Source of the DNA: Aestuariibaculum sp. M13 | GTDB lineage: Bacteria; Bacteroidota; Bacteroidia; Flavobacteriales; Flavobacteriaceae | DNA length: 64,000 nucleotides | Assembly: GCF_024723255.1 (NCBI RefSeq) | Contig: NZ_JANIAC010000006.1 | Coordinates: 62,001 to 126,000 of the forward strand | Direction: 5' to 3' | Shown here: positions 1,736-13,382 of the stretch, one piece after another | Numbering within the stretch: position 1 is the first letter of the stretch | Layout of the letters: each line of letters starts with the position of its first letter | The notes under the pieces: model-generated | The model's input: the letters and a program-made list of their open reading frames with translations, nothing else | What the model was told of the DNA's origin: nothing | The model's database searches: none | Made by a program: the position numbers and the translations under genes

Positions 1736-4700
1736 TTATGAACGCATTTTTGAACGATACCACATTTTAAGCTTCATACTTAAGAAGAATAAAACAGGTA
1801 CGACAATCAACGTTAAGAAGGTTGCTATAAATAATCCGTAGATTACGGTCCATGCTAATGGACCCCAGAATACCACGTTATCACCACCAATATATATGTT
1901 CGGATCAAGTTCGCCGAATAAGGTAAAGAAGTTAATATTTAACCCTATGGCTAAAGGTACTAAACCTAAAATGGTTGTGATTGCTGTTAATAATACTGGG
2001 CGTAAACGGGCTTTACCTGCTTTAACGATGCTTTCATATAAATCTTCAGTACCTAAGTATTCTTTGCGATCGATATCTAAATCATGCTTTCTTCGGTCAA
2101 TTAAAAGCTGAGCATAATCGAGGAGTACCACCCCGTTATTAACCACAATTCCCGCCAGCGAGATGATTCCCACCATGGTCATCATAATTACGAATGGTTT
2201 TGCTGTAATTACTAGTCCACCAAATACACCAATAAAACTTAAGAAAATAGCCAACATAATAATAGCTGGTTTTGAAACTGAGTTAAACTGGAAAATTAAG
2301 ATGAAAAAGATTAAACCAAGACCGGTAAAGAACGCACCAACAAGGAATTTCATTTGTTTGTTTTGTTCTTCAATTTGTCCTGTATAATCTATTTTAATGC
2401 CATTAGGAAGACCTTCGTAGCTCTTCATTTCATTTTGAATTTGAGCAACAATGGCACCTGCATCGGTAAATCCTGGTGATAATGCCGAATATACAGTTAC
2501 CACACGTTTAGTGTCGATATGTTTAATGGCACTAAACCCAGAAGTGTTTTCATGACTTGCCACTGCAGAAAGTGGAATTTCTTTAAGCTGACCTGTATTC
2601 GTTCTAAATGTAATATTCTGATTGAATAAGGCACTTGTATTATATCTGTTGGCTTCGTTAAAACGTACATAAATATCGTAGTCGTCACCATCTTCTTTAT
2701 AGATGCCTGCCTTAGATCCAAATATTGAGTTACGTAATTGTTGCCCTATTTGTGCAGCACTAATGCCTAATTCACCGGCTTTTTTCCTGTCGATAGTAAC
2801 TTTCATTGATGGCTTATCTTTATTCACATCAATTTTAAGTTCGTCGATACCAGGAATATTTTTTCCGTTAATAAACTGTCGCATATTCTCGGCAGTTGCG
2901 ATTAATTCATTGTAATCATCACCTTCAATTTCAATGTTAATCGGGGCTCCGGCAGGTGGTCCTTTGGCGTCTTTTTCAACCGAAATTAGAACTCCTGGAT
3001 AAACACCAACTAAGCTTTCCTGTACTTTTTGACGTAATAATTCACTGTCTGCTCCACGACGGTATTTGTATTCGCGCATTGAAGCGGTGATTTTTGCTTT
3101 ATGAGGCATTTCGGCAGCCGAACCACCATCGGTTTGTGGGTTTCCGGCACCTTCACCAACTTGAGAAACAGCGCTTTCTACTAAGAAATTGTAATCGCCA
3201 TCTTTATATTGATTATCATCTAAAACCTTATAAACACGATTTTCAATTTCCTTGGTTATGGCATTGGTTTTTTCAATCGCTGTACCCTGCGGATATTCAA
3301 TGTAAACAATGATTTGATTTGGTCTGTTATCTGGGAAGAACTCCACTTTTGTGCGCTGTGCTTTTAACGACATTCCAAATGCTATGAATGAAATGATTAA
3401 TAAGGAGAATGTACCAATACTAATAATATATGGCATTTTTCCTGAAAGCGCCCAACGCAATTGTTTTTCATATAAACGTTCCAGTTTTACCAAGGTGTGA
3501 TTTTGGAAATGGTTGGCGGCTTTACGTAAAAACAAACGGTATATCCAAAGTAAGCCAACTGTTACAATCATTAAGGTTCCTAAACCACGATAAGCACCAC
3601 CAGTAAAGACCACTATTAAACCAAGAACTAACATTATAATCGACATTCTTATAATGCGTTTTAAAGGCATGTCTTTATCTTCAATAGTCATGAATTCTGA
3701 TACCATTACCGAGTTAAAGAAAATAGCAACGAACAATGAAGATCCTAATACAACCGATAGTGTAATTGGTAAAATCATCATGAATTCACCCATAATTCCC
3801 GGCCATAATCCTAACGGAATAAAGGCGGCTACGGTGGTTGCTGTAGAAATGATAATCGGGAACGCAATTTCACCAATACCTTCTTTGGCAGCACGCATTC
3901 GGCTCATGCCTTCTTCGTCCATTAAACGGTAAACGTTTTCAACAACCACAATACCGTTGTCTACCAGCATACCAAGCCCCATGATTAATCCGAAAAGTAC
4001 CATAGTATTTAAACTATATCCCAATCCGTTAAGAATCATAATAGACATAAACATCGACATCGGGATGGCAAAACCAACGAAAATGGCATTCTTAAATCCT
4101 AAGAAGAACATTAACACAGTAACTACTAAAAGTACCCCGAAAATAATGTTGTTTACTAAATCGTCTACCTGACCAATAGTTTTTTCAGACTGGTCGTTGG
4201 TTATCGTTACTTTTAAGTCTGCTGGAAAAACATTTTCAACGGCATCTTTAACAATAACCTGAATTTGTTCTGAAGCTGCCACCATGTTTTTACCAGCACG
4301 TTTTTTAACGTCTAGCATCACTACAGGAGCACCAAATTCTCTGGCGAAGGTGGTTTTGTCTTCTTCTTTAAATTTTACTACGGCTACATCTTTTAAGTAA
4401 ATGGCATGACCATTTTCAGATTTAACCACGAAGTTTTCAAGCTCTGATGGTTTTTCAATTTCACCAATAATACGAATAGTTCTTCGTTGTCCGCTGGCTT
4501 TTAAATTACCTGCAGACATGGTCATGTTTCCGTTGTTAATAGTATTGATAATATCGCTGAAGGTTACTTTGGCAGCCATCATTTTATAAATGTCTACGGC
4601 AACTTCAACTTCTTTTTCCTGAGCACCACGAATATCAGCTTTTTTAATTTCAGCTAAATCTTCAATTTCATCCTGTAAATGCTCGGCGTATTCTTTTAAT

Positions 4701-5203
4701 TTTTCAATAGGATAATCGCCGGAAATATTAATGTTAAGAATTGGCATTTCTTCCGAAAGGCTCAACTCAAAAACATCTGGCTCGACTTTGGCACCATTAA
4801 AAGTAGGCCAGTCTTCGCTTGAGGTTTCCTGATCTATCTCGTCTTTTACCTTTTGTTTGGCGGCTTCAACCGAAATATTTTCGTCGAATTCTACCATTAA
4901 CATACCGTAATCTTCCTGAGATGTTGAGGTAATTTCAACCACATTACTTACCGTTTTTAAACGGTCTTCCAGCGGATCGGTAATTAATTTTTCTATGTCT
5001 TCGGCTGTATTTCCGGGGAAAACAGAACTGACGTAAATTTTAGTTTCATTAACTTCAGGGAAGCTTTCTCGAGGCATATCGAAAAAGGCCGCAACTCCTA
5101 AATAGAAAATGACAAGAATAAGCACGTACATCGTGGTCTTATTGTCTATCGCCCATGAAGAAAAACCAAATTCTTTATAGATGCTTTTTTTGTTTTTTGA
5201 CAT
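1736..5203 (-). CDS. RND-superfamily efflux permease (AcrB/HAE1-like)
   Basis: 1155 residues, the full length of a proton-driven inner-membrane RND pump. The order is a first transmembrane helix at about 22-42, a periplasmic porter domain, a helix bundle at about 345-550, a second porter domain, and a final helix bundle from about 985. The RND motif is seen as VDNGIVVVEN in the TM4 region. AcrB has two aspartates there (VDD); here the second is Asn, and the TM10 Lys position (KNA in AcrB) reads NNG. It is the last gene of the tetR-tolC-adaptor-permease operon, 12 bp after the adaptor gene. The substrate is unknown. Confidence 0.93.
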   Translation of the reverse strand: MSKNKKSIYKEFGFSSWAIDNKTTMYVLILVIFYLGVAAFFDMPRESFPEVNETKIYVSSVFPGNTAEDIEKLITDPLEDRLKTVSNVVEITSTSQEDYGMLMVEFDENISVEAAKQKVKDEIDQETSSEDWPTFNGAKVEPDVFELSLSEEMPILNINISGDYPIEKLKEYAEHLQDEIEDLAEIKKADIRGAQEKEVEVAVDIYKMMAAKVTFSDIINTINNGNMTMSAGNLKASGQRRTIRIIGEIEKPSELENFVVKSENGHAIYLKDVAVVKFKEEDKTTFAREFGAPVVMLDVKKRAGKNMVAASEQIQVIVKDAVENVFPADLKVTITNDQSEKTIGQVDDLVNNIIFGVLLVVTVLMFFLGFKNAIFVGFAIPMSMFMSIMILNGLGYSLNTMVLFGLIMGLGMLVDNGIVVVENVYRLMDEEGMSRMRAAKEGIGEIAFPIIISTATTVAAFIPLGLWPGIMGEFMMILPITLSVVLGSSLFVAIFFNSVMVSEFMTIEDKDMPLKRIIRMSIIMLVLGLIVVFTGGAYRGLGTLMIVTVGLLWIYRLFLRKAANHFQNHTLVKLERLYEKQLRWALSGKMPYIISIGTFSLLIISFIAFGMSLKAQRTKVEFFPDNRPNQIIVYIEYPQGTAIEKTNAITKEIENRVYKVLDDNQYKDGDYNFLVESAVSQVGEGAGNPQTDGGSAAEMPHKAKITASMREYKYRRGADSELLRQKVQESLVGVYPGVLISVEKDAKGPPAGAPINIEIEGDDYNELIATAENMRQFINGKNIPGIDELKIDVNKDKPSMKVTIDRKKAGELGISAAQIGQQLRNSIFGSKAGIYKEDGDDYDIYVRFNEANRYNTSALFNQNITFRTNTGQLKEIPLSAVASHENTSGFSAIKHIDTKRVVTVYSALSPGFTDAGAIVAQIQNEMKSYEGLPNGIKIDYTGQIEEQNKQMKFLVGAFFTGLGLIFFILIFQFNSVSKPAIIMLAIFLSFIGVFGGLVITAKPFVIMMTMVGIISLAGIVVNNGVVLLDYAQLLIDRRKHDLDIDRKEYLGTEDLYESIVKAGKARLRPVLLTAITTILGLVPLAIGLNINFFTLFGELDPNIYIGGDNVVFWGPLAWTVIYGLFIATFLTLIVVPVLFFLSMKLKMWYRSKMRS

Positions 5204-5215
5204 TACGTGTTTGGT

Positions 5216-6388
5216 TTAGTAGTTAATGATTTCAACTGTTTGTCCGTCTTTAACGCTACGTGCACCTTCCTGAACAATTTCAGTTCCGTTCTCTATACCA
5301 CTTAAAACCTCAATAACATCGCCTTGTGTTTTTCCGGTAGTAATAATAACACGGTTTGCTACGCCAATATTTTTATCGTTTTTATCTGAGATAACGTAAA
5401 CATATTGTTCGCCATTTGCATTCTCTGAAATGATACTTTGTGGAATTAATAAGGCGTTTTCGTTAGTATAATCGTTAATTTTTAGTCTTGCCGTTAAGTT
5501 AGGCTTGATAGACTTGTCCTTATTTGGAATACCAACTTCCACTTTAAACGTACGGTTGTTTGGGTTGATATAATCTCCGGCCTGACGTACTTTAGTCTCA
5601 ATGGTTGTTCCTAAAATAGGAAAGTCTACAATAACGTTTTTACCTTTGGTAACATCGGCGATATAACGTTCCGGGATATCGGTTTCAATATACATATCGT
5701 CAAGGTTAACCAAACGCATTAATTGCGTTTGCCCGGCTGCTACAACACTTCCTTGTTCTGTAATAACATCGTCAATAGTTCCTGAAAAAGGCGCTCTAAC
5801 GGTTGTTTTAGCGATTTGTTGTTCTAACTGACTTACGGCTTCTTCTTGAGATTCGTAAGTTGATTTAGCTTGTAAATACTGAATTTCACTACCAATGTTT
5901 TGTTCCCATAAACGTTTCTGGCGCTCGAAAGTGGTTTTAGCTAAATCGGCCTGGATTTTAAGCTGTGATAATTGCTGGCTTAAACCACCATCATCAATTT
6001 TTGCCAATAATTGCCCTTTGCTTACTTTTTGTCCTTCCTTAACGTAAACGCTAGTTAAAATACCGTTATATTCTGGCGTGATGACTAATAAATTTTTAGT
6101 AGTCACGTTACCTTGAATTTCTAATGTATGATTAAAAACTTCGGTCTCGGCCTTAAAAGCTGTAATTAGAGGGACGTGTTTTACCGTGTCTAATTTTGAA
6201 ATAGCTTCGTCTAAAAGTTTAATTTTAGAATTTATAGTTTCCTGATCGTTAACCAGCTCGGCGCGTTTTGCACGAATGGTTGTTAGGTTGTTGCTCTCTA
6301 AAACTTTTTCAACAGAGTTTCTTTTCTTTTCGCCTCCACAAGAGACCAATAGAATACTTACGATGAATAATGAATATATCTGTTTCAT
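5216..6388 (-). CDS. RND efflux periplasmic adaptor (membrane fusion protein), lipoprotein
   Basis: 390 residues. A signal peptide ends in a lipobox (LLVSC, Cys at about 17), so the mature protein is probably lipid-anchored in the inner membrane. A first predicted coiled coil covers about 28-70. A biotinyl-lipoyl half-motif (VKEGQKVSKGQLLAKIDDGG) is followed by an alpha-hairpin rich in Gln and Leu at about 145-195, the second lipoyl half (TVRAPFSGTIDDV), and beta-barrel and membrane-proximal domains. It bridges the RND permease to the outer-membrane channel encoded just upstream. The extra N-terminal coiled coil is common among Bacteroidota adaptors. Confidence 0.92.
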   Translation of the reverse strand: MKQIYSLFIVSILLVSCGGEKKRNSVEKVLESNNLTTIRAKRAELVNDQETINSKIKLLDEAISKLDTVKHVPLITAFKAETEVFNHTLEIQGNVTTKNLLVITPEYNGILTSVYVKEGQKVSKGQLLAKIDDGGLSQQLSQLKIQADLAKTTFERQKRLWEQNIGSEIQYLQAKSTYESQEEAVSQLEQQIAKTTVRAPFSGTIDDVITEQGSVVAAGQTQLMRLVNLDDMYIETDIPERYIADVTKGKNVIVDFPILGTTIETKVRQAGDYINPNNRTFKVEVGIPNKDKSIKPNLTARLKINDYTNENALLIPQSIISENANGEQYVYVISDKNDKNIGVANRVIITTGKTQGDVIEVLSGIENGTEIVQEGARSVKDGQTVEIINY

Positions 6389-6415
6389 TTGAAATTGAAA
6401 TTTTCTTTTGATTGA

Positions 6416-7762
6416 TTAATTTATTTGAATTGTATTTAGAATCGTTTCCAACTCTGCTTTGGTATTAATAACATCTAGCATGGCTTGTAGAAACTCTTGT
6501 TGTGCGTTGTATAACTGCGTTTGTGCCTGGCGTAAATCGAAACTTGAACCAATACCTTCAAAAAATTTGGTTTGGTTTTTACTTTCAATACGCTCGGCAA
6601 GATTTAGGTTTAGTTTTTTGTTTTCGTAATCTTCAATGGCGAACTGGTATTCACTTTTGGCCGATGCGATTTGAAGTTTTAATTGTTGTTCGGTTTCCTT
6701 TAAATCGTTTTCAGCTTTTTCAAGATCGATTTTTACACGCGCTGTGGCAGCAGTTCTTCCTAAAGAACTAAAAATAGGAATGTTTAAACTTACTCCAAAC
6801 AACGAAGTTCCAAACCATTCCTGGTCTTTACTTAAAAAATTAAAACTATTTGAAAACCCCGAATATCCGCCGTTTAAAAAGGCGTTAAGTGTTGGCATGG
6901 CTTTACTTTTTTCGAGTTTTAAAAGTAATTCCTGTGACACTTTTGAATTTTCAGCAATTTTATAATCAATGTTGTTTTCTACATTTTCTTCAGTGCTTAA
7001 TAACGATAAACTAATGTTTTGAGCCGTTAGCATTTCCAGCTTGTCACTTAATGTTGTTTTAGCGTTAATATCAATGCCTAAAGTAATGTTTAGCATTTGG
7101 TAAGCTAAGACCTTTAAACGCTCGGTTTTGTTTAGATTACTCATTAAGCCGGAAAGGGTAATTTGTAATTGCTCTACACTTTCTTCCTCTTCTAAACCAT
7201 TTTCAAACATTTTAGAAGTGTCGTTAACATTGTCCTCTAAAATTTTACGGTCTTTGTTTAAAAGGATTAAACTTTCTTCTGCTAATAGCACATTTCCGTA
7301 AGCGTTAATAACGGCTTTTCTAATTTCTAAATCCGTTTTTTGTTTGGCATTTTTAGAAATATCTAAATATACTTTAGCTGATTGTAAACCTACAATATAC
7401 GACCCGTCAAATATTTTTTGAGTGATGGTTGCTGTGGCTGTCATGTTTTGTTTTGTTCCAAAAACAACTTCTTCAAACTCGCCAGGGTTACCTCCAAAAG
7501 CTTCTGCTGGAATTAAAGAGACCTGTTGTTTTAAGAAATTTTGATAATCTACGGAAGCGCTTAATTGTGGCAAACCGGTAGCTGTGGTTTCCCATTTTTG
7601 TTTTTCCGCAGCATCAATATCCTTAGCAGCGTTTATGGCTGTTCTATTGTTTTCAATGGCAAAATTAATAGCTTCCTCTAAACTAAAGGAATACGACTGT
7701 TCTTGTGAAAACATCGATATAGAAAGCAATAGACTAAATAATAGTATAAGACTTTGTTTCAT
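6416..7762 (-). CDS. TolC-family outer-membrane efflux channel
   Basis: 448 residues with a signal peptide ending near SISMFSQEQ. Two repeated halves are rich in long amphipathic helices, with paired motifs such as LEEAINFAIENN at the N-terminus and FDLRQAQTQLYNAQQEFLQAM near the C-terminus, as is typical of the OEP/TolC family. It forms the trans-periplasmic exit duct for the adaptor and permease encoded downstream. Its start codon lies immediately after the tetR stop codon, with which it is presumably co-transcribed. Confidence 0.92.
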   Translation of the reverse strand: MKQSLILLFSLLLSISMFSQEQSYSFSLEEAINFAIENNRTAINAAKDIDAAEKQKWETTATGLPQLSASVDYQNFLKQQVSLIPAEAFGGNPGEFEEVVFGTKQNMTATATITQKIFDGSYIVGLQSAKVYLDISKNAKQKTDLEIRKAVINAYGNVLLAEESLILLNKDRKILEDNVNDTSKMFENGLEEEESVEQLQITLSGLMSNLNKTERLKVLAYQMLNITLGIDINAKTTLSDKLEMLTAQNISLSLLSTEENVENNIDYKIAENSKVSQELLLKLEKSKAMPTLNAFLNGGYSGFSNSFNFLSKDQEWFGTSLFGVSLNIPIFSSLGRTAATARVKIDLEKAENDLKETEQQLKLQIASAKSEYQFAIEDYENKKLNLNLAERIESKNQTKFFEGIGSSFDLRQAQTQLYNAQQEFLQAMLDVINTKAELETILNTIQIN

Positions 7763-7763
7763 T

Positions 7764-8369
7764 TTATGATTGATTGTTGTTTAAATATTCAGTTAAATGT
7801 TCTAGCCCTTTTGGGGTGCATATACCTCGTAAATGATATTCCAAATAGTTGTTCATTAAGGTGTGCATCGAAAAATTATTTAAAGGAAATAGTTCTTTAT
7901 CCTTTAAAGACATCATACTGTTGAAATAGATTTTCGAAATGAACTCTTTATTAATGGTGTCTCGGTATAACCCCATTTGAACACCACGATCTAAGTTGCT
8001 AATCACACATTCACCCATAACGCAAGATTGTTTTTTCATTAAATCGGCGTAAATCTTCGGGTAGTACTTTTGAAGCTGAAATTGAGGTGATGATTTCTCA
8101 TCTTTTAAATGCTTCATAACAAAACGCTTTATTTCGTAAAGTTCTTCAATCGGTGATTTGTCCTGCAGAATGATTTCATTAATACCTGTTTGTATGGTGT
8201 GATACATATACAAGGTAGTGGCTTCTACAAGATCGTTTTTGTTTTCGAAATATTGATAAAGTGTTTTTTTCGACATGCCAAGGGCATTGGCAAGTTCGTC
8301 CATCGTCACACTCTTAAACCCATAGTTTAAGAATAATTCTGCAGCTGTTTTTAAAATATCATCTTTCAT
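7764..8369 (-). CDS. TetR-family transcriptional regulator of the efflux operon
   Basis: The frame can open at a GTG at 8378, but the ATG at 8369 (MKDDILKTAAELF) is the better start: it gives the usual TetR N-terminus, and the upstream bases belong to the promoter box. 201 residues. The N-terminal HTH matches the family pattern (FLNYGFKSVTMDELANALGM, then SKKTLYQYFENK); the C-terminal half is the ligand and dimer domain and is unassigned. It is the first gene of the operon with tolC, adaptor and permease, and a perfect inverted repeat sits over its promoter, so autorepression released by a pump substrate is likely. Confidence 0.9.
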   Translation of the reverse strand: MKDDILKTAAELFLNYGFKSVTMDELANALGMSKKTLYQYFENKNDLVEATTLYMYHTIQTGINEIILQDKSPIEELYEIKRFVMKHLKDEKSSPQFQLQKYYPKIYADLMKKQSCVMGECVISNLDRGVQMGLYRDTINKEFISKIYFNSMMSLKDKELFPLNNFSMHTLMNNYLEYHLRGICTPKGLEHLTEYLNNNQS

Positions 8370-8377
8370 AAGTAGCA

Positions 8378-8407
8378 CAAAACTAAGCTAAGAAACTTTA
8401 AAAACAA
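8378..8407 (-). promoter_or_regulatory. Flavobacterial promoter of the tetR-efflux operon
   Basis: Read on the minus strand: TTG (8407-8405), a 19-nt spacer, then TAGTTTTG (8385-8378). This fits the TTG-N(17-23)-TAnnTTTG consensus of Bacteroidota. The expected transcript start is only a few bases before the ATG at 8369. Confidence 0.6.
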
Positions 8408-9467: not shown

Positions 9468-9817
9468 TGCAGTTGCCATCAACGTTTGAAGATTTAATAA
9501 CTGAAGCTAACAATTTAGACTTGTATAGTAAATTAGTAGTGCAGTTAAATAAAGACTTTTTACTGGCAAATATCGATTTAGATTTTGATGAAGCTATTTT
9601 ACCTTCCAGTTTAAAATTGATGTTGCACGAGACGATTTATAAACTCATTCAGGAAAAATTTGCCGATTATTTAAACCTGCTATACATCATTGATGTGTCT
9701 GAAAAACAAGTGAAAGAACTTGATGGGAGTGATGTTTTAAAACTCTCTGAAGATGTTGCGTTTTTGGTATTAAAACGGGAATGGCAAAAGGTATGGTTTA
9801 GACATAAATATCAATAA
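9467..9817 (+). CDS. Conserved hypothetical protein, translationally coupled to the polyprenyl synthase
   Basis: 116 residues, apparently soluble, with no signal peptide or membrane helix. It is rich in Leu, Asp and Lys and predicted mostly helical. Its ATG shares a base with the upstream stop codon, which argues for a real gene under translational coupling. I do not recognise a domain; it resembles small flavobacterial proteins found next to prenyl synthase genes, but I cannot assign a role. A strong terminator follows 4 bp later. Confidence 0.75.
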   Translation: MQLPSTFEDLITEANNLDLYSKLVVQLNKDFLLANIDLDFDEAILPSSLKLMLHETIYKLIQEKFADYLNLLYIIDVSEKQVKELDGSDVLKLSEDVAFLVLKREWQKVWFRHKYQ

Positions 9818-9820
9818 CAT

Positions 9821-9855
9821 AAAAAAACACCCTCTTAGATAGAGGGTGTTTTTTT
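9821..9855. terminator. Bidirectional intrinsic terminator
   Basis: A perfect stem (AAAAACACCCTCT / AGAGGGTGTTTTT and further A:T pairs) closes the loop TAGAT. It lies between the convergent hypothetical gene (plus) and TonB receptor gene (minus). Confidence 0.88.
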
Positions 9856-9859
9856 ATGT

Positions 9860-11860
9860 TTAATTGAAAACGAAAGATGTGTTAATATAAAAATTGCGTC
9901 CTTGTCTGGCTATATTATTCCAGTCGGCGTAGGTTGAATAGTAAGTATCTAAAATGTTTTCAACACCATATTTTAAAACCAGTTTGGTGCTTTTTAAATA
10001 ATACATGTTTCCAAAGTTTAAATTCAGAACACCATAAGAAGGTGTTTCATTTTCTCCATAAAAACTGCTGTAATTACTTTGGTTTCCGTTGCCTTCTAAT
10101 TGTAAAGCCGCATTAAAGTGCGTTGTTGTGTAGGTTACTTCAGCTAAATAGGATAATGGTTTTATAAGCGGAAGCGGTTCCCTGTTACTTCCTGTTCCGT
10201 AGTTATAACCAATTGAAGAATTTACCGAAAACTGCTTACTAAATTGGTAACTTGTGTTTAGATATACATCGAAAATAGAAGCGTCATTTAAAGCTGTGTA
10301 TAATTTTACGCCGTTCGCACCAATGGTCATTGGGCTTAAGCTGGAATCGATTTCGCCAATAATATAATTCTTAATAAGAAAATAGGAAGATTCTAAGCCT
10401 ATTTTAAAATTATCGGTATGATAATTAGCTTTTATATTAGCTTCGAAAGCTTTTTCGTTTTTCATATTAGGATTTCCAATATAATCGAAATTGTCAAAAC
10501 TATTATAAAGGAAAAACCCGTAACCTTCACTAACCGAAGGTGCACGCTCTCCATAACCTAAGCCAAAAGATAGATGATAATCATTCTTGTGCAGATTGTA
10601 ATTTGAAGCCGCCGACGTTAAGAATCGGTTTTTAGAATTGGTTAAATCCGCATAGAAAATTTTTAAACTTTCAACGCCTTCATCTTTTGCAATGGTGTTA
10701 TTGTGAAACCCGAATCGGACAGAAGTGTTTATGGATTCTGAATCATTTAAAGTGTAATTATCTTTAACAAATAAACCACTGTAACCTGTTCTAATGTCTG
10801 GCCAGGTATACATAAACATGCTCGGTTGATTGGAGTCGTTAGGGTACATGGTCATTTCGGCTAATGAACGATTGTAAAATCCATTGAGGTTGAAACTTAA
10901 TTGATGTTTATTTTCAACTATTTTTAGTTTACTGTAAAAACCATAAGTATCACTCCATCCGGGCATATCCATACGAATGGGTACATCAGGACGTTTAGAG
11001 TCGTCCATAATATGAGTGATGGTGTTAAAATACAGTTTAGTTTCCCAAGATTTTATGTAGCTGAGGTTGCTATTGTAATTATGTGATAACGATGTTATAA
11101 AAGCTTCGGCTAACGATACATCCATAGGTAGCGCTGGGTAGCCAATATCCGTGGCTTTGTCGTAAATAATATTAGCATCCAGACTGTGGTTGTCCGATAG
11201 TTTGTAACCCGCTTGAGTCGACAGATTGTATTTTTCAAATTGTGAAAACAGAACTTCGGTATTGTTTCCGGCATCATAATTATCAGATTTTCGGTAAATA
11301 CCATCCGTATTTAGGTAAAACTTTTTGGTTGAATATTCCAGTTCTAAACCTCCGGTTTTGTAGTTGCCATTGGTTTCGTAGCCTAAATCGATACTTGACC
11401 TTAATCCCGAATGATTAAATTTAGATTCCGGTAATTGTAAATCGATAGCGCCACCAATATTATGTCCGTTTTCTGATCCTTCCTGTCCTGAATGCACAGC
11501 TACTTGTTTCAGATTTGAGACATCTACATACGAAGTTATTGGATCCATTTTATCGGTGCAGGCACCAAAAATCTGCATCCCGTCAATGGTTACATTCAGG
11601 CGTTCGCTGGTCATGTTATTTAACGTTGGTTCCCAGGCGTAGTTTCCGCGTTTTATCATGGTAATACGATTCGATTTTTCTAAATAATCGTCAATACTCG
11701 ATAAGGTTTTTTCTTGACGGTAATTACTCAGGTCTTGGGTGCCAATAACTATAATTTCATTTAACAGCGTGGTATCTTTTTTTGTAATGACATGTGTTTC
11801 TTGTCCAAAGGACATACCACTGAAAATAATGCCCAAAATGAGAACAATATGTTTTTTCAT
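9860..11860 (-). CDS. TonB-dependent outer-membrane receptor, OprC-like putative copper receptor
   Basis: 666 residues with a signal peptide (cut near MSFGQ), a TonB box-like stretch (LLNEIIVIG), a plug domain at about 45-145 and a 22-strand-type barrel ending in aromatic Phe-Asn (FVFN). The plug contains GACTDKMDP, a CxxxM with Cys101 and Met105; the barrel contains THIMDD, an HxM with His283 and Met285. From memory, the Cu(I) receptor OprC uses CxxxM (143/147) and HxM (323/325), almost the same spacing of about 180 residues. Copper uptake is therefore an inference from motif and spacing. The gene ends a cluster with a Met/His-rich lipoprotein and a Cys-rich small protein. Other metals or an orphan role remain possible. 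Confidence 0.88.
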   Translation of the reverse strand: MKKHIVLILGIIFSGMSFGQETHVITKKDTTLLNEIIVIGTQDLSNYRQEKTLSSIDDYLEKSNRITMIKRGNYAWEPTLNNMTSERLNVTIDGMQIFGACTDKMDPITSYVDVSNLKQVAVHSGQEGSENGHNIGGAIDLQLPESKFNHSGLRSSIDLGYETNGNYKTGGLELEYSTKKFYLNTDGIYRKSDNYDAGNNTEVLFSQFEKYNLSTQAGYKLSDNHSLDANIIYDKATDIGYPALPMDVSLAEAFITSLSHNYNSNLSYIKSWETKLYFNTITHIMDDSKRPDVPIRMDMPGWSDTYGFYSKLKIVENKHQLSFNLNGFYNRSLAEMTMYPNDSNQPSMFMYTWPDIRTGYSGLFVKDNYTLNDSESINTSVRFGFHNNTIAKDEGVESLKIFYADLTNSKNRFLTSAASNYNLHKNDYHLSFGLGYGERAPSVSEGYGFFLYNSFDNFDYIGNPNMKNEKAFEANIKANYHTDNFKIGLESSYFLIKNYIIGEIDSSLSPMTIGANGVKLYTALNDASIFDVYLNTSYQFSKQFSVNSSIGYNYGTGSNREPLPLIKPLSYLAEVTYTTTHFNAALQLEGNGNQSNYSSFYGENETPSYGVLNLNFGNMYYLKSTKLVLKYGVENILDTYYSTYADWNNIARQGRNFYINTSFVFN

Positions 11861-11878
11861 TTTGTATCTATATTAAAG

Positions 11879-11913
11879 AACAGTATCGTATTGTATTGAA
11901 ACACGATACTGTT
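11879..11913 (-). repeat. Intergenic hairpin between the lipoprotein and TonB-receptor genes
   Basis: AACAGTATCGT (11879-11889) and ACGATACTGTT (11903-11913) form a perfect 11-bp inverted repeat with a 13-nt loop, inside the 62-bp gap. On the minus strand it is followed only by TCTTTAAT, too poor in T for a classical terminator. It could be a partial terminator, an mRNA stability element or an operator. Confidence 0.6.
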
Positions 11914-11922
11914 GCTTGAGTT

Positions 11923-12765
11923 TTAAAATTCTAATTCCAGATATAAACTGCTTTGAATATTTTCTTCGGTAACATCTTCGCCTTTTAAAACCGTATTTTC
12001 TGAATCAATCAGTTTTAGGTTTAAAATCCAGTATCCTGTCATGGTTAACGATAAATTGGCGTGATACATATTATCAATGCTGTTGAATGATAAATCGGTG
12101 TTATTTGGTGAACTGTGATTTCCCATGCCAGGCATTCTCGGGTCTAAAGTTAAAGTGTAGTCTTCAACCACAGGAAAAGACATCATGGTTTCCATAGTGT
12201 AAAGACCAACAACTAAATTGTTTATGCCAATTATTGGATTGCTTGGTTCAATTAGGGCTACAACATAACGTTTACCATCACTTCCCATAAAGCTACTCAC
12301 ATTTTGTAATTCATTTTGTAAAACGGTAATGGTATCGGTAACGGTATACTCAACATCATCAATGGTGTAATTGATAGTTAATGACCAGCCAGAGCCATCG
12401 GTGTTGGTCATTTGGTAAATAATATAACCTTCATAAAGTGTTTCTTTATCAGATGCTTTTGAGACCTCAGATTTTGGACACGAATGCTGCATGGTTGGCA
12501 TTTGCATAACAGGCACCCAGTCTATTGAGGCGTTTTCAATATAGCTTTTTGTTGCGTTATCAATAATTCGAACACTTATGGTATTGTAGCCAGTATAGAA
12601 TCGGCCAGATGTTGTGTAAAGTTCAATAGTATGTTTGTCGTTTGATAGGTTTTGAACTTTAATTAGATTGTCCAATTCGTTAACTATGTTGTCGTCATTA
12701 TCGGTTGAACAACTAACAGAGAATATAGTAATAAAGATTAAGGGTATTATATGTGTAAGTTTCAT
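11923..12765 (-). CDS. YtkA-like, Met/His-rich lipoprotein of the copper cluster
   Basis: The open frame extends to 12849, but the ATG at 12765 gives a proper lipoprotein signal (IFITIFSVSC, Cys19), so 280 residues. Two beta-rich halves are visible. The first carries VPVMQMPTMQHSCP (Met87, Met89, Met92, His94, Cys96); the second carries DPRMPGMGNHSSP (Met211, Met214, His217) and MTGYWILNLKL, the pattern of the YtkA-like fold. Clustered Met, His and Cys in an exported protein suit copper binding in the periplasm or at the outer membrane. It lies between the Cys-rich small gene and the TonB receptor, all on one strand. Function is inferred from motif and context. Confidence 0.78.
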   Translation of the reverse strand: MKLTHIIPLIFITIFSVSCSTDNDDNIVNELDNLIKVQNLSNDKHTIELYTTSGRFYTGYNTISVRIIDNATKSYIENASIDWVPVMQMPTMQHSCPKSEVSKASDKETLYEGYIIYQMTNTDGSGWSLTINYTIDDVEYTVTDTITVLQNELQNVSSFMGSDGKRYVVALIEPSNPIIGINNLVVGLYTMETMMSFPVVEDYTLTLDPRMPGMGNHSSPNNTDLSFNSIDNMYHANLSLTMTGYWILNLKLIDSENTVLKGEDVTEENIQSSLYLELEF

Positions 12766-12906
12766 TTTTTTGTAATTCAGTTTCGTGTATAGCCATTTGC
12801 ATAAAGCGTTTAGGCAATATGTTTTTTGTTTTGATTTTCGCATAAGCAATTGCTCTAATACATCGTGAATGGATGAATTAGAAGTCAGGAATCTATTAAA
12901 TAAGAA

Positions 12907-13302
12907 TTACAAAAAATTGGGTGGAGGGGTGTCTACAGTAAGGGTATTTTCGTAAACTATAGGTGTTTTATAAAACAGCTTGTGTTTAGCTGTTAATTGA
13001 ATTGTATTCTGACAATCGATAGTGTTGATATTAGAAATGTAAAAGGCATCTAACATCATACGTTTGTTTTCCTGCTGAGGAATGTTTTTATCTGGTCCAG
13101 TTTCGTTTTTAGCCAGTTGTTTTTGCAAATGACATTTACCGTTACAACCTTGCTGGTTGTCTTTTTGAATACAAAGTGTTTTTGCGATAAAATCCTGATT
13201 AGCAACAAAGTCGACCATAATCAACAAGGTGTTGATGTTGTGCGCTAATAGAATGACAATTAGAACGAATGCGGTTATTTTTTGACTCAAGGTTTTTATC
13301 AC
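12907..13302 (-). CDS. Small membrane-anchored Cys-rich protein, first gene of the copper cluster
   Basis: 131 residues from a GTG start at 13302; the next in-frame Met (Met29) would remove the membrane segment, so GTG is preferred. One hydrophobic helix at about 10-30 is followed by CIQKDNQQGCNGKCHLQKQL, with Cys44, Cys53, Cys57 and His58 (Cx8Cx3CH), which looks like a soft-metal site. The C-terminus is Pro-rich (TPPPNF). Proteins with a CNGKCHLxKQL signature recur in Bacteroidota in my recollection, but I know of no assigned function. The position before the Met-rich lipoprotein and OprC-like receptor suggests a copper-related role. Confidence 0.72.
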   Translation of the reverse strand: MIKTLSQKITAFVLIVILLAHNINTLLIMVDFVANQDFIAKTLCIQKDNQQGCNGKCHLQKQLAKNETGPDKNIPQQENKRMMLDAFYISNINTIDCQNTIQLTAKHKLFYKTPIVYENTLTVDTPPPNFL

Positions 13303-13306
13303 GCCG

Positions 13307-13314
13307 CAAAAGTA
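13307..13314 (-). promoter_or_regulatory. -7-like box before the copper cluster
   Basis: On the minus strand it reads TACTTTTG (13314-13307), ending 5 bases before the GTG start. The nearest TTG (13342-13340) is 25 nt away, slightly outside the 17-23 range. If used, the mRNA would be leaderless or almost so. Confidence 0.35.
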
Positions 13315-13382
13315 GTGATAAAAGCATATTTAAATGTCACAAACATTACATTTATGAAACATTTTAATTTTAGTCAAAGGAT

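Follow-up and report, generated by a model that had tools for sequence, protein, structure and literature searches.

We report here a probable copper-acquisition operon in a 64,000-nucleotide (nt) stretch of the Aestuariibaculum sp. M13 genome (contig NZ_JANIAC010000006.1, positions 62,001 to 126,000; hereafter, the window). It consists of three minus-strand genes running from 13302 to 9860, namely a small Cys-rich open reading frame (ORF), a YtkA-type lipoprotein gene and the gene for a TonB-dependent receptor; all feature coordinates given below refer to the minus strand. The original prediction, made from the letters of the window, had placed and named these genes at 9860-13302, and both their coordinates and their identities hold. 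It had also counted the small protein among the transport components. Its Cys-rich character stands and an export-type segment is present, but its features are those of a regulatory leader ORF, and we think it probable that the operon consists of a copper-sensing arrest peptide rather than a transport part, a lipoprotein partner and an OprC-like importer. Copper uptake as the operon's function is well supported by the comparisons below; the description of the system as complete is not, as the three genes encode no inner-membrane step.

The receptor (666 aa, 9860-11860) carries Cys101-T-D-K-Met105 in its plug (11546-11560) and His283-I-Met285 in its barrel (11006-11014), the two pairs lying 182 residues apart as originally noted. 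A phmmer search of the Protein Data Bank (PDB) returns OprC entries only (all six distinct sequences that reach E<=0.001, the best of them at 1.3e-19), and the alignment pairs C101 and M105 with C143 and M147 of OprC, and H283 and M285 with H323 and M325. These four are the OprC copper ligands (PMC8610252), and two OprC entries in the PDB that have His at the M147 and M325 columns agree with the numbering. Structure prediction, proposed earlier as a check, gave a model for which OprC is the top fold match; OprC is thus the best match of the receptor both in the PDB and by fold, as the original prediction of an OprC-like CxxxM...HxM receptor had it. Against TIGR01778, the OprC/TonB-copper family, the receptor scores 133 bits (E 1.5e-38), below the family cut-off of 472.45.

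Our search of 199 Flavobacteriaceae genomes, which scored at most six candidates per genome, found 78 receptors, spread over 75 genomes; 40 of them are at least 41% identical to the query (clade A, to which the window belongs) and 38 are 24-29% identical (clade B). Because of this scoring depth, we leave the absence of either clade from a genome uninterpreted. All 78 have CxxxM in the plug and HxM in the barrel at the OprC columns, with C101, M105, H283 and M285 invariant. A second, named set of 80 loci, drawn from 590 relatives, keeps the site in 79 receptors, the single exception being an HxV in a clade A receptor from a Lutibacter metagenome-assembled genome (L139); counts for C101 and M105 in the named loci are biased because the search patterns contained the CxxxM motif, which leaves the 78/78 unaffected. 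The clade A and named sets share taxa, and kinship between the sequences means that counts are not independent. The four residues are not freely lost within the family; in a phylum-wide sample, the Cys of the site is absent from 2 of the 15 receptors that have both regions. Two distant receptors (L238 and L244) read GxxxM...HxM with a leader still present. Two other TonB receptors of the window's genome do not have CxxxM. The receptor tree has long branches, and the deep order of clade A, clade B and the Proteobacteria is not settled in it. A cargo other than ionic copper, such as a copper chelate, zinc or silver, seems to us very improbable, given four OprC copper ligands that are invariant in 78/78 receptors and partner genes that indicate copper.

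The second gene (11923-12765, ATG start) encodes a two-domain lipoprotein with the Met/His motif DPRMPGMGNH, a putative copper-binding partner of the receptor. The YtkA assignment made earlier is confirmed by a match to PF13115 (E 7.9e-07, 30.1 bits versus a cut-off of 25.9), and the closest fold is that of CrdA. Such a YtkA/CrdA-like gene adjoins the receptor gene in 40/40 loci of the window's clade and in 80/80 named loci; clade B loci have the leader without the YtkA gene. Homology supports the reading of these two genes as encoding a lipoprotein of the copper type and its partner, a copper receptor related to OprC. In one genome (G130, loci L014 and L083), a stop codon interrupts the receptor gene while the leader and lipoprotein genes remain; intact relatives exist, and this may be a natural receptor mutant.

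The first gene, a putative copper-responsive leader peptide of 131 aa with a GTG start (12907-13302), lies 141 nt before the lipoprotein ATG. It contains a putative copper-sensing motif, Cys44-x8-Cys53-N-G-K-Cys57 (13132-13173), and ends in PPP (12919-12927), a putative ribosome-stalling motif three residues before the stop codon. The leader motif was found upstream of the receptor in 76/78 loci, three of which have a second copy (79 leaders in all); in the remaining two, a variant leader ORF is visible by eye, that of L050 having CRAKC. Among the named loci, 77/80 have the leader; the other three have their receptor start no more than 1.4 kb from the end of a contig. In every scored locus the leader precedes receptor and lipoprotein. 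Mean column identity across the 79 leaders is 22%, with seven positions invariant: C44, C53, G55, C57, L59, P127 and P128. Eight or nine residues separate the first two Cys (C-x8/9-CxGxC), and a hydrophobic export-type segment, judged without a signal-peptide predictor, precedes the Cys in 76/79. The PP pair stands nine residues or fewer from the stop codon in 77/79 leaders and 10 and 14 residues from it in the other two; a PP end of this kind occurs in 1/540 control ORFs of at least 200 aa and in 8/276 other small ORFs. The residue before PP is mostly H, P, R or K, and one leader of the named set continues for 27 residues after PP. ORFs of at least 150 aa, as called, make up 3/79, 1/77 (named) and 3/41 (phylum-wide) of the leaders. 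Neither Pfam nor NCBIfam has a model that covers the leader; the matches are scattered and weak, among them Pfam DUF6769 in 4/79 (E 0.0036 at best) and a single CzcI-like model of NCBIfam (E 0.0077). Four operons (L045, L047, L048 and L229) are headed by two leader ORFs, each with the Cys motif and the PP end.

The small Cys protein might instead persist as a stable periplasmic protein anchored in the membrane, serving alongside the receptor as a copper chaperone, a reductase or an assembly factor, with Pro-Pro a feature of the protein itself. Its presence beside the receptor throughout, its export-type segment and its conserved Cys would all suit such a role, which we nonetheless consider unlikely. 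Conservation along the sequence is lowest in the linker from the Cys box to PP (~26% majority identity, versus 75% for the Cys box), yet the distance from the last Cys to PP is held at 64-72 residues in all 79 leaders (mean 68.2, sd 2.3); moreover, the gene stands ahead of the rest of the set and places PP near its stop codon. A variable but length-fixed linker, the first-gene position and the terminal PP are thus more readily explained by a device that acts as a nascent chain than by a protein that folds.

A profile search finds the leader family in 153/395 Bacteroidota genomes, with one copy in the window's genome. We inspected 40 phylum-wide loci, hand-picked among the matches listed, and all 41 of their leaders keep CxGxC and PP at a spacing of 63-72; this 41/41 may be optimistic because of the hand-picking and because 12 listed matches covering only profile positions 66-99 were left out. 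Downstream of these leaders, an OprC-like receptor is the next gene in 13 loci and follows a YtkA gene in 3. Other TonB receptors follow in further loci (7 by Pfam, 3 by size only), as do MbnP- or MauG-like genes (3 by Pfam, 3 by size only), the MbnP/MbnH names resting on matches below their cut-offs. SCO1 is the second gene in one locus, three more having a like layout (assigned by layout only), and COX1 is the third gene in one.

Leader-ribosome stalling has been shown to act as a copper switch in unrelated bacteria, in CruR (PMC9426467) and CutF (PMC9973294). Drawing on what is computed here (the homology of the receptor and the residues of its site, the order of the genes, the signature of the leader and the promoter elements of relatives), we infer a scheme of copper transport, sensing and stalling in which the operon is read as leader peptide, copper lipoprotein and OprC-like receptor. 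The receptor would take in ionic copper through its CxxxM-HxM site with energy from TonB, and the lipoprotein would capture copper at the outer membrane or pass it on. The leader would be exported during its synthesis, such that the Cys motif reaches the periplasm while Pro-Pro occupies the peptidyl-transferase centre. At low copper the ribosome would stall at Pro-Pro and the downstream genes would be expressed; copper bound by C-x8-CNGKC would free the stall and end expression, following CruR logic. The control may conceivably run in reverse, with copper prolonging the stall and raising expression of an operon that would handle copper or defend against it instead of acquiring it. CutF, whose CxxxC resembles CNGKC of the window, acts thus in R. 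capsulatus (PMC9973294), and the lipoprotein comes closest in fold to CrdA, which carries the title of copper resistance determinant; however, copper lowers NosA, OprC and BfrG (PMC8610252, PMC9426467), and cbb3 and nos assembly genes, which are copper-requiring, adjoin the operon in some relatives, and we regard reversed control as improbable.

Relatives share two promoter elements upstream of the leader. The first, TAnnTTTG, lies 4-5 nt before the start codon in 29/43 clade A, 29/36 clade B, 55/72 named and 21/41 phylum-wide leaders, against a background of 7.2%. The second, TGAY-N4-RTCA, begins 35 nt upstream of TAnnTTTG and occurs in its exact form in 24/43, 25/36 and 65/72 leaders of the first three sets (background 3.1% of 1600 windows). 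The Bacteroidota -7 box spans -12 to -5 (PMC9723704), and among leaders with the element the predicted transcript start coincides with the start codon in 16/28 clade A, 8/29 clade B, 31/54 named and 3/21 phylum-wide cases; the relatives' promoter is thus predicted from sequence to give an almost leaderless mRNA. In the window, the -7 box match TACTTTTG (13307-13314) lies 4 nt before the GTG, so a leaderless mRNA is predicted here as well. The centre of the TGAY-N4-RTCA box falls at -41.5 in 14/17 clade A, 18/21 clade B, 27/50 named (with a further 19 at -42.5) and 2/5 phylum-wide boxes; -41.5 is where Crp/Fnr proteins bind as class-II activators. In relatives, an activator of that family could thereby add oxygen/redox control that matches the demand of cbb3 oxidase. 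A Crp/Fnr gene stands divergently beside the leader in 8/80 named loci and in 0/78 other loci. Within the window's genome, an identical box, TGACTTTTATCA, is found ahead of ccoNO and again ahead of the gene for a heavy-metal P-type ATPase (at 4093 and 6551 of L294, contig C5), which belong to a cbb3 cluster adjoining an Fnr-like gene. Genome-wide, TTGAY-N4-RTCAA is barely enriched there (36 versus 27 in the control reading), and the operator argument therefore rests on position, not number. Two other promoter scans were set aside: sigma-70-like sites number 24 versus 18.4 in shuffles, which is uninformative, and the classic TTTG-N17-23-TAnnTTTG occurs 6 times versus 5.8 by chance, with none at the leader.

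The closest parallels of the leader and receptor lie in known copper systems. OprC and NosA are the TonB copper receptors of P. aeruginosa and P. stutzeri (TIGR01778). The window's receptor shares with them the TonB receptor fold and the CxxxM-HxM copper site, and P. aeruginosa oprC likewise has a leader ORF before it, a cruR homolog (PMC9426467); it differs in being only ~21% identical, in its pairing with a YtkA-type lipoprotein and in having a leader of another sequence family. CruR of B. pertussis (DUF2946) has CXXC and RAPP 45 residues apart (PMC9426467). Like CruR, the window's leader is the first gene of an operon with a copper-linked TonB receptor, with an export segment, a Cys motif, PP near the stop codon and a gap before the next gene. 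In contrast, Bacteroidota leaders have C-x8/9-CxGxC and PP 63-72 residues apart, and RAPP or RGPP occurs in 0/197 of them (79 + 77 + 41). In Pandoraea, Thioclava and Acetobacter, plasmids carry OprC-type receptors that have CxxxM and HxM (L116-L118), and each of these is preceded by a small ORF with CxxC and RAPP or RGPP, of which only that of Pandoraea is annotated as DUF2946. CutF-like ORFs have been catalogued in number (5,334, of which 19% Bacteroidota, or 40% normalised), with TonB genes among their commonest neighbours (PMC9973294), and window-type leaders are probably already among them: they too are short ORFs upstream of copper genes, with an export-type segment, CxxxC and a Pro-rich C terminus. 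They differ from CutF in their spacing (68 versus 45), in their link to a defined operon of OprC-like receptor and YtkA gene and in their Crp/Fnr-type promoter. The 45-residue spacing is argued to put the Cys motif of CutF in the SecY vestibule (PMC9973294); by the same arithmetic, a spacing of 68 would place that of the leader clear of the channel, in the periplasm. CrtA/BfrG is another leader-headed copper TonB receptor, regulated by copper through CruR and tied to heme-copper oxidase function, but it belongs to a receptor cluster separate from OprC and imports chelated Cu(II), and the term CxxxM is absent from the available text (PMC12914433).

Taken jointly, these features suggest a broader reading, which we advance tentatively and consider somewhat more apt to fail than to hold in all its parts. 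The leaders may form a Bacteroidota-wide class of copper-sensing arrest peptides of their own, without DUF2946 homology recognisable by profile search, with a non-RAPP stall and a spacing of ~68. Their Cys motif, ~20 residues further out than in CutF and clear of SecY, would be a direct sensor of free copper in the periplasm. In Flavobacteriaceae, the mRNAs of these peptides would be almost leaderless and under the control of a class-II Crp/Fnr site, forming an oxygen/redox AND low-copper gate on copper uptake; elsewhere they would head MbnP/MbnH-like, SCO or oxidase genes.

Several observations weigh against this picture of the operon and its control. The exact TGAY-N4-RTCA box is rare phylum-wide (6/41), and in the window itself the -7 box of the leader is accompanied by only a degenerate operator (13337-13348, lying ~41 nt upstream of where the leader starts and deviating at ~2 of its 8 defined bases), so Crp/Fnr input is doubtful in this strain. 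RNA folds downstream of the leaders no better than in controls (mean z -1.9 in 27/79 gaps versus -2.0 in 10/42 control gaps; every third locus, gaps <50 nt skipped, 25 custom dinucleotide shuffles), and we therefore claim no stem-loop or terminator mechanism. DUF2946 is not among the 24 families matched by any of the 79 leaders at E<=1, and the Pro-Pro end could instead serve the mature protein. In three phylum-wide loci (L232, L236 and L256) the next gene has no Pfam match, and nine further downstream assignments in that set have size or layout as their basis. In the receptor model, the predicted local distance difference test score (pLDDT) falls below 50 at residues 105-109, adjoining the copper site.

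The genes near the operon in relatives hint at what the copper may be for. A nosD-like gene lies nearby in 12/40 clade A and 20/80 named loci, a ccoG-like gene in 5/40 and 6/80, and the clade B operon is near cydA in 8/38 loci. The nosD-, ccoG- and cydA-like identities were checked on example loci; a NosY label, assigned by inspection, is presumptive. Copper supply to oxidases appears the likeliest purpose of the operon in the window's strain, whose genome has three COX1-family genes above the cut-off. Supply of NosZ there was dropped as a candidate, the match being weak and partial (E 4.3e-4, 19.7 versus a cut-off of 625 bits). In clade B (e.g. L063), the gene for cytochrome bd subunit I is divergent at the locus that we inspected, which sets an oxidase that contains no copper next to copper uptake.

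Outer-membrane copper import is poorly known, and the original prediction called it seldom described in flavobacteria. This is partly right: an OprC-like TonB receptor with CxxxM-HxM was proposed in 2024 in Bizionia argentinensis (G2EC70), where it is listed between CcoG and NosL, with neither leader nor lipoprotein described in the accessible text (PMC11213822). It is most likely an ortholog of the window's receptor, because B. algoritergicola (L159) has a window-type operon between nosDF and fixH-ccoG-ccoP. Neither a flavobacterial OprC-like copper receptor nor CutF-like ORFs before TonB genes in Bacteroidota are thus new (PMC11213822, PMC9973294). In the Bacteroidetes literature that we searched, mostly without subscription papers, such a receptor is proposed in one genome report and we found nothing on its control. 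By our literature searches, three things appear to be new: a leader family defined by its motif and spacing, the association of that family with OprC-like receptors and YtkA lipoproteins, and a promoter that combines a Crp/Fnr site with a leaderless start. Should the leader act as proposed, copper-acquisition operons throughout the phylum would be recognisable by a single family of short ORFs, which would also flag TonB receptors and lipoproteins whose cargo is unassigned; beside CruR and CutF, it would set another stalling motif, not of the RAPP type, and another geometry of the nascent chain.

Two predicted hairpins complete the operon. One of 14 pairs (11879-11913), from fold prediction, lies in the gap between the lipoprotein and receptor genes and might, speculatively, adjust the receptor level inside the operon; the other, terminator-like with 20 pairs and a T-rich tail (9816-9860), lies at the operon end. 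By inspection, the flanking genes have no copper-related look. Near the operon, window positions 1736-8378 hold a TetR-like regulator gene with outer-membrane-factor, membrane-fusion and RND-pump-like genes, which we take by inspection to be an ordinary efflux operon.

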